Assembly: GCF_036046055.1 (NCBI RefSeq)
Contig: NZ_CP107939.1
Coordinates: 4,154,001 to 4,218,000 of the forward strand
Reading direction: 5' to 3'
From: Nocardia sp. NBC_00403
Lineage (GTDB): Bacteria > Actinomycetota > Actinomycetes > Mycobacteriales > Mycobacteriaceae
DNA length: 64,000 nucleotides
Positions within the stretch are counted from its first letter, which is position 1. Every line of letters starts with the position of its first letter. The translations under genes and the position numbers were made by a program. Below, piece by piece: positions 12,640-34,439 of this stretch. Below the pieces are notes generated by a model. The model saw only the letters and a program-made list of their open reading frames with translations, was not told the DNA's origin and made no database searches.

Positions 12640-12879
12640 TCGGCCGCTGCGGATCAGCTGTTGCCGTCGTGGTTCATGCAGAACTTCACCGGCGATCACC
12701 TCGTCGCGATGGGGGTGCGTGCCGGTGAAATCATCACTGCCACCGGCGATGCTCGCGTCGCGTTCATCGATGCGGGCGATATCGCGGCCGTCGCCGGGCA
12801 TGCGCTGCTGGATGCGATCCCACACAACACCGAACACATTCTGACCGGAGTGCGGCGGATCGAAGGATTCGCCATTTGA
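12640..12879 (+). pseudogene. Remnant of an NmrA-like NAD(P)H-binding protein
   Basis: The frame ending at 12879 contains LPSWFMQNFTGDHLVAMGVR and then TGDARVAFIDAGDIAAVAGH, the middle part of NmrA/azoreductase-like NAD(P)-binding proteins. The N-terminal Rossmann fold (about 110 residues) and the C-terminal third are missing. No start codon fits, so I regard it as a dead fragment. Confidence 0.6.
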
Positions 12880-12916
12880 TCACGCTATCTGTCACCGTGG
12901 CCGCAATACTGACGTC

Positions 12917-13707
12917 ATGGCGACAGTCGTGGCTCTGCATGCCCACCCAGACGACGAGATCATCCTGACCGGCGGCACCCTGGCGAAACTGGCCCACACC
13001 GGCCACCGCACGGTCATCGTCGTCGCATCCGACGGACAGTTCGACGGTGCCGTCGCGCCGCGGCTGCGGGAATTGCAGGCCAGCGCACGGGTTCGGATAC
13101 AAGATCGGACCGTGTCCGCTGTCCGCGTAGCCGAGGTGTTCGACCCTGGACACGCCGAGAACTTCGGCCCGGACGAACAATGTTCGTCCGGGCGGACGTC
13201 GATGAGGCCGCTGAACGCTTGGCATCGATCCTCGTGGAAGAACGCCCGGATGTGCTGCTGAGCTATGACCGCAACGGTGGATACGGTCACCCCGATCATG
13301 TCCGGGTCCACGAAGTCGGCGCCCTGTCCGCGAAAACGGCCGGCGTCAGACGGGTGCTGAACGCGACACTGCCTCGGGAGCTGTTCCTGGGGCTGACCGC
13401 TCCGGCCCGCTGGCTCGGCTATGACGCCACCGCGATCCGCAACGGTTACACCGCTCGCGCGGACATCACTCACCGGATCGACGTCGGAGCGTTCGCGGCA
13501 CAACGGATGAGTGCACTGGCTGAGCACCGGTCCATCCTCGAAGGCCGTGGCCGTTTCGCCAGGATCGCCCGAGCCTTGCGCCGCATTCCCACACCGATTC
13601 AGGCACAGCTTTTCCGGTGGGAATGGTTTGCTGAGGAAGGACTCCGCCCCGCCGCGTCCGGCCCGCTCGATGACCTCTTCGCCCGCCCGACCTCTGCGGC
13701 CGGCTGA
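12917..13707 (+). pseudogene. PIG-L family deacetylase gene interrupted by an internal inversion
   Basis: The 5' part reads MATVVALHAHPDDEIILTGG, carrying the zinc-binding HPDDE motif of MshB/PIG-L N-acetyl-glucosaminide deacetylases. The 3' part reads RADVDEAAERLASILVEERP, LLSYDRNGGYGHPDHVRVHE (the second motif, HPDH) and continues to a normal C-terminus. Between them, about 80 bases (13087-13166) are on the wrong strand: their reverse complement encodes EVLGVSRVEHLGYADSGHG and PILYPNP, exactly the missing segment. The 5' and 3' parts are in different frames (offset by one base), so re-inverting alone would not restore the frame perfectly. A small indel accompanied the event. The gene should make no full protein as it stands. 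Confidence 0.85.
13168..13192. repeat. 12-bp-arm palindrome at the inversion joint
   Basis: CCCGGACGAACA-A-TGTTCGTCCGGG is a perfect inverted repeat centred on 13180. It lies immediately right of the inverted PIG-L segment. Its sequence is also coding in the intact gene (PGRTMFVRA), so it is an ancestral feature that may have promoted the rearrangement through a hairpin. Confidence 0.8.
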
Positions 13708-13755
13708 GACCCAGCACACCAGCTCCGACCGAAGCTGACGATCTCGACCTGGCTG

Positions 13756-13845
13756 AGTGACGTTGCTGCCGAAGTAGCGGAACAGCGAACGTTGCGAAAT
13801 GCTTGCCTCGCGAGCGATCTGGGCAATGGTCGTCAGTCTCCTGGG
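13756..13845 (-). pseudogene. Helix-turn-helix fragment of a TetR regulator
   Basis: On the minus strand a short frame reads TTIAQIAREASISQRSLFRY then FGSN, the characteristic TetR recognition helix region. Neither the upstream helix 1 nor the ligand domain is present. It abuts the RidA remnant at about 13836, so two unrelated gene pieces have been joined. Confidence 0.6.
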
Positions 13846-14142
13846 ACGCCGCCGGGGACACGGTCGGCGTGGGTGACCTCGCCGCGCCAGGTCGAGCAGT
13901 GCTACCTCGATATCGGCAAGGCCCTGGCCCAGATCGGTGGCAGTTTCGACGACATCGCGAATCTGACTGCCTACGTGGTGGATTGGACTCTCGACAAAAT
14001 GCCCACGCTCGGCGAGGGCATCGCCCGAGCGTCTGCCCAGCTGGGGATCGCCGCGGCTCCACCGGCCACACTGCTGGGCGTCGCGGCGCTGGACATACCC
14101 GCCCACCTGATCGAGGTCACGGCAACCGCGATCCTGGACTGA
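13836..14142 (+). pseudogene. RidA-family protein remnant, truncated and frameshifted
   Basis: The peptide VEQCYLDIGKALAQIGGSFD and later DWTLDKMPTLGEG and PPATLLGVAALDIPAHLIEV are the C-terminal two thirds of a Rid-family protein (enamine/imine deaminase fold). The preceding DAAGDTVGVGDLAA is in another frame; one extra C near 13887 explains the shift. The N-terminus is missing. The 3' end overlaps the convergent LysR gene by 26 bases. Confidence 0.65.
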
Positions 14143-34364: not shown

Positions 34365-34439
34365 CTATCCACCCATGGACGGTCGGAAAACCATCAGCCT
34401 GCCAGTGCGGTTAGGCCTCTGACCGCCGAGGTTCAGGGC

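Follow-up and report, generated by a model that had tools for sequence, protein, structure and literature searches.

Chanin et al. reportedly described, in 2024, intragenic invertons in which a DNA segment is inverted within a coding sequence. According to PMC11892184, invertons are flanked by inverted repeats of 10-40 nt. Template switching provides two other precedents. In E. coli, according to PMC7202029, quasi-palindromes are made perfect by a template switch. In yeast coding DNA, PMC8604942 attributes both arm homogenisation and inversion to template switching, the inverted piece being the short spacer, a few bases long, that separates the arms of the repeat; spacer inversion and arm homogenisation occurred together in 1 of the 10 spacer inversions of the study.

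We describe here a broken PIG-L/LmbE-type deacetylase gene (PF02585), located at positions 12917-13707 of the + strand of a 64-kb stretch of DNA, hereafter the window, and recognized by its Pfam profile and by alignment with relatives. The host is a Nocardia whose genome is a single contig of 8,725,101 bp. The locus resembles intragenic and phase-variable invertons, as PMC11892184 presents them, in that an inversion lies within a bacterial open reading frame (ORF), and departs from them in that the window has neither the 10-40 nt flanking repeats, nor restoration of the frame, nor a sign of reversibility. It shares with the E. coli quasi-palindrome mutations of PMC7202029 an inverted repeat that is more perfect at the mutated site of a bacterial gene, the difference being that the window also carries an inverted segment, some 80 bp long, next to the repeat. 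With the yeast spacer inversions of PMC8604942, it has in common an inversion within coding sequence and a now-perfect palindrome, whereas the window segment is far longer than the yeast spacers and sits next to the palindrome instead of between its arms. The finding is a new instance of a known mutation type, well documented and isolated, in which the inversion, its derived state, the loss of frame and the palindrome at the joint form the established part of the case. It provides a clean and well-polarized example of bacterial gene loss in which about 80 bp were inverted in place and one of the two joints carries a palindrome; the lost enzyme is a deacetylase-like protein. An annotation based on ORFs only would show two short ORFs and miss the cause.

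An inverted segment in a PIG-L deacetylase gene

When 148 genomes of the genus, the host's own included, were searched at the DNA level, 88 of them gave matches at E ≤ 1e-3, many being short, and a search of 150 genomes gave 32 at E ≤ 1e-20, namely 31 relatives and the genome itself. The set analyzed here comprises 29 relatives (loci L010 to L038), with G065 and G121 left out. The closest relative, L010 of genome G025, is taken to be a Nocardia seriolae record, the closest named locus being L039 of N. seriolae NBRC 15557. L010 is 82% identical to the window at the DNA level across the gene and 90% identical across the inverted piece. We considered a gene as intact when a single frame runs through HAHPDD, LGYADSGHG and GH.DH and reaches a stop at least 245 residues on, which is the case of 28 of the 29 relatives.

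The window copy is organized differently. Its 5′ part (12917-13087, + strand) is in frame from its ATG, reading MATVVALHAHPDDE ... RELQASA, matches PF02585 and aligns with the relatives; the ORF to which it belongs (12917-13261) matches positions 2-56 of the PF02585 profile with its residues 6-61 (40.6 bits). The 3′ part (13180-13707, + strand), which starts MFVRADVDEAAERL ..., lies in another frame and shares 85% identity with the L010 protein across 178 residues; residues 6-47 of this second ORF correspond to profile positions 85-125, with a score of 27.4 bits that is slightly below the cut-off of 28.2. The window copy thus has no single frame that carries the whole PF02585 domain, profile positions 2-56 and 85-125 being found in separate ORFs. 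The middle of the protein is absent from all three + frames of the window copy, which led us to reject a programmed frameshift.

The DNA of the gene aligns with the closest relatives throughout, save for positions 13088-13168, which match their other strand. Read on the - strand, this segment of about 78 to 82 bp encodes the missing protein middle, AEVLGVSRVEHLGYADSGHGPILYPNP. Its opposite-strand identity reaches 90% over 81 bp with L010, 89% over 81 bp with L018 and 88% over 69 bp with L013. Ungapped scoring of the 81 bp favors the inverted over the direct fit in all 29 relatives, from 73 inverted versus 40 direct matches in L010 to 52 versus 36 in L027, the weakest case, and blastn reports the opposite-strand match in all of them except L027. 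We therefore place an inverted segment of 81 bp at 13088-13168, with boundaries uncertain by about 3 bp. The segment is in its place relative to the orthologues and on the opposite strand, as in a micro-inversion. Chance resemblance is excluded by 81 bp at 90% identity on the other strand, exactly where the gap falls. With all 29 relatives in the opposite orientation, the window copy stands alone, so the inversion is derived in the window's lineage. It is known from one assembly of the species.

A sequence-only reading of this DNA had proposed that an internal inversion inactivates the PIG-L gene, and had delimited the segment at 13087-13166. The comparison with 29 relatives bears out this interpretation, and the proposed boundaries fall within 1-2 bp of ours. 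The alignment with intact homologues that it had called for set the breakpoints at 13088-13168 and found the same arrangement in 0 of the 29 relatives.

Joints and reading frame

We modeled the joints with a script that flips the segment in a relative and then scores its alignment to the window, using L010, L018, L013 and L014. Flipping L010 raised the score from 41 to 109, with equal best scores for segments of 78, 80 or 82 bp, and the same three lengths were best for L018, whose score went up from 37 to 99. With L013 and L014, which are more distant, the best inverted lengths were 72 and 71 bp (score 29 to 85), and the boundaries are therefore based on L010 and L018. Judging from the equal-scoring flip lengths, inverted microhomology at the joints amounts to at most 2 bp. 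Once L010 or L018 is flipped, the only differences left at the joints are 2 nt inserted at the left one and a single base substituted at the right one, besides scattered divergence; the left joint (13085-13090, + strand) accordingly has two extra bases compared to a clean inversion of either relative.

From the conserved CCAGC to the ATG of MFVRAD/MFARAD, the window counts 95 nt and L010 93 nt. This net gain of 2 nt leaves the two outer parts of the gene out of frame, in agreement with the earlier suggestion that they are out of register and that the event included a small indel. Flipping the 80 bases delimited in the sequence-only reading still leaves the outer parts in different frames. The locus is thus a PIG-L/LmbE-family deacetylase gene that broke recently and, with the ends of the protein in different frames, can yield no full-length enzyme.

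A palindrome at the right joint

A perfect palindrome (13167-13193), made of 13-bp arms and a 1-base center, has the right joint at its base. The palindrome had been spotted at this joint from the letters alone, with arms counted as 12 bp. It is the sole perfect palindrome with arms of at least 12 bp and a spacer of at most 6 bp within the 64-kb window, where four places qualify when one mismatch is allowed; a wider version of it is 89% complementary. As a predicted single-strand fold, the hairpin reaches -17.5 kcal/mol in the window, compared to -13.4 kcal/mol in L010. The corresponding site pairs at 11 of 13 positions in L010 and at 7-10 of 13 in eight other relatives, with energies of -4.7 to -9.8 kcal/mol. 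The palindrome is thus imperfect in all nine relatives tested and perfect in the window, a comparison made with relatives rather than with the earlier sequence of the window's own lineage.

The base at the right joint is G in the four relatives modeled and C in the window, where this C pairs within the palindrome. Two further palindrome bases differ from L010 and are paired in the window, and L018 shares one of these states, so the perfection of the palindrome need not date entirely from the inversion. Among the 41-nt windows folded across the 64 kb, 0.5%, corresponding to 46 separate places, form hairpins of -13.4 kcal/mol or stronger, and three places reach -17.5 kcal/mol, the strongest (-19.2 kcal/mol) being near 34437. 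Because it was noticed post hoc and strong hairpins occur at 46 places, the coincidence of the hairpin with one joint is suggestive only, and not proof.

Candidate mechanisms

We favor, with a probability of about 0.6, a template switch that occurred during replication at the quasi-palindrome and through which some 80 bp were flipped with a net gain of two bases. Synthesis would stall at the hairpin formed by the quasi-palindrome adjoining the segment, the nascent strand would copy about 80 bases off the opposite strand, and the switch back would leave a slightly imperfect joint together with a now-perfect palindrome. We infer that a single event took place, that the strand switches followed this order, and that this event also made the palindrome perfect. 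A template switch explains both the location of the joint at the base of the hairpin and the pairing of the joint base. Speaking against it, the segment lies beside the hairpin and spans about 80 bp instead of being a short spacer between the arms, and the joints offer at most 2 bp of inverted microhomology. The same outcome could possibly, though doubtfully, result from two double-strand breaks about 80 bp apart and Ku-dependent end joining of the reversed fragment with small additions at its ends. A Ku gene is present in the genome (PF02735, E 9.5e-52), and such a repair fits joints where microhomology does not exceed 2 bp, two bases have been gained and one has changed. Yet end joining does not account for a right joint located at the base of the sole perfect palindrome with arms of 12 bp or more, or for a joint base that pairs in this palindrome, and the recapture of a free 80-bp fragment is a rare event, which we count against it. 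Neither a template switch nor end joining gives reason to expect reversal. Cases of this kind bear on the respective shares of template switching and of end joining or recombinases in small bacterial inversions. The strength of the hairpin (z -5.74) is also what could favor an assembly or sequencing artefact at this site, which we hold to be very improbable given that the genome is one contig with a completeness of 100 and a contamination of 0.8, and that an artefact would not be expected to yield a clean 80-bp flip still 90% identical to the other strand of the relatives.

A reversible inverton, in which a site-specific recombinase would flip the segment and turn the gene on and off by phase variation, likewise implies a defined segment inverted inside a coding sequence, and we give it hardly any credence. 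Within 25 bp of the joints, some of the nine relatives examined do show longer inverted matches (8 bp in L013 and L015, 6 bp in L011, L012 and L014); across the nine, the longest match measures 4 or 5 bp when 15 bp are considered, and 4-8 bp overall. Between the joints of the window itself the longest inverted match is 5 bp, as it is in L010 and L018, and this length is ordinary when set against random pairs of places 81 bp apart (3000 pairs per distance), with P values of 0.58 within 15 bp and 0.91 within 25 bp on each side. The window orientation is found in 0 of the 29 relatives, and flipping the segment proposed earlier does not restore the frame. A search of the 64-kb window for recombinases returned no PF00239 or PF00589 match, the nearest PF00589 match being about 77 kb away from the PIG-L gene. 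A phase switch is unlikely because the inverted repeat at the joints does not exceed 5 bp and the window has no match to either recombinase family. The doubt about an on/off switch voiced in the sequence-only reading was well placed in view of the short repeat, of the lack of this orientation in the 29 relatives and of a flip that restores no single frame. A variant of the template-switch explanation, in which the hairpin would be a recurrent hotspot where the segment flips both ways without a recombinase and both orientations exist in the species, seems to us far-fetched; if true, it would amount to a replication-driven, recombinase-free contingency site inside a coding gene. We find it equally hard to believe that the two ORFs (12917-13261 and 13180-13707) have each been retained as a functional protein. 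Both are open, the second starts with an ATG inside the palindrome, and nonsynonymous change is not in excess. However, low dN/dS can be carried over from before the break, the first ORF lacks GH.DH and the second HAHPDD, neither holds the whole PIG-L profile, and a split of this kind occurs in none of the 29 relatives, 28 of which are intact while L018 is truncated with the segment in its usual orientation.

Age of the break

Read as three independent pieces, the window copy is free of stops throughout. The pieces still look constrained, the dN/dS calculated over them between the window and L010 being 0.19, compared to 0.13-0.22 between L010 and L011, L012 or L013. Among the changes that could be polarized, the window branch has 16 synonymous and 12 nonsynonymous ones and the L010 branch 17 and 15, respectively; a further 42 are unresolved. 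Given this dN/dS, the absence of stops in the three pieces and the lack of a nonsynonymous excess on the window branch, the break is recent, or at any rate not old enough for clear decay to have set in. The flanks are of no help in dating the event: in six stretches from relatives (L124 to L129), alignment with the window is confined to positions 12867-13715, which cover the gene plus no more than about 50 bp upstream of it. The different neighborhoods in which the gene is found across species suggest that it moves.

Other differences are visible within the gene. Upstream of the inversion, at 13031-13039, the window lacks three codons in frame, with DGQ instead of the DGHMEQ or similar of six relatives. 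At 13288-13299 it reads HPDH, a motif reported correctly for this sequence by the earlier reading, where all six relatives aligned have HRDH. The orthologue at L018 (genome G141) is broken too: counted from the beginning of HAHPDD, its frame runs for 146 residues, compared to 251-259 residues in the 28 others, and, with the segment in its usual orientation, this is an independent loss of the same gene.

Protein family and genomic surroundings

The PIG-L/LmbE deacetylases MshB, Mca and BshB1 share PF02585 with the intact L010 protein, which matches the MshB chains 4ewl, 1q74 and 1q7t with E values of 3.2e-11 to 5.4e-11. In contrast, L010 scores well under the NCBIfam cut-off of each of these families (77.6 versus 224.35 bits for MshB, 90.5 versus 277.15 for Mca and 32.4 versus 182.5 for BshB1), so it belongs to another PIG-L subfamily. 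Our literature search found no paper pairing Nocardia with a PIG-L deacetylase. The genome contains seven other PIG-L loci, three of which have a tblastn match to the L010 protein (E ≤ 1e-3) at 29-34% identity; we rejected the possibility that a duplicate covers the loss, there being no close copy among the seven.

We also surveyed positions 1-60000 of the window against G025, G141 and G046 in three 20-kb slices, scoring 40 of 361-501 candidates per genome; the window aligns with these genomes in parts only, and inspection by eye revealed no other nested small match on the opposite strand among the matches listed. Downstream of the gene, a possible gene remnant on the - strand (13765-13833) carries a partial TetR_N domain whose score of 23.1 bits is slightly below the cut-off of 24. 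An ORF on the + strand (13792-14142) may be a further remnant, its RidA-type PF01042 match covering only positions 43-120 of a profile of 121.
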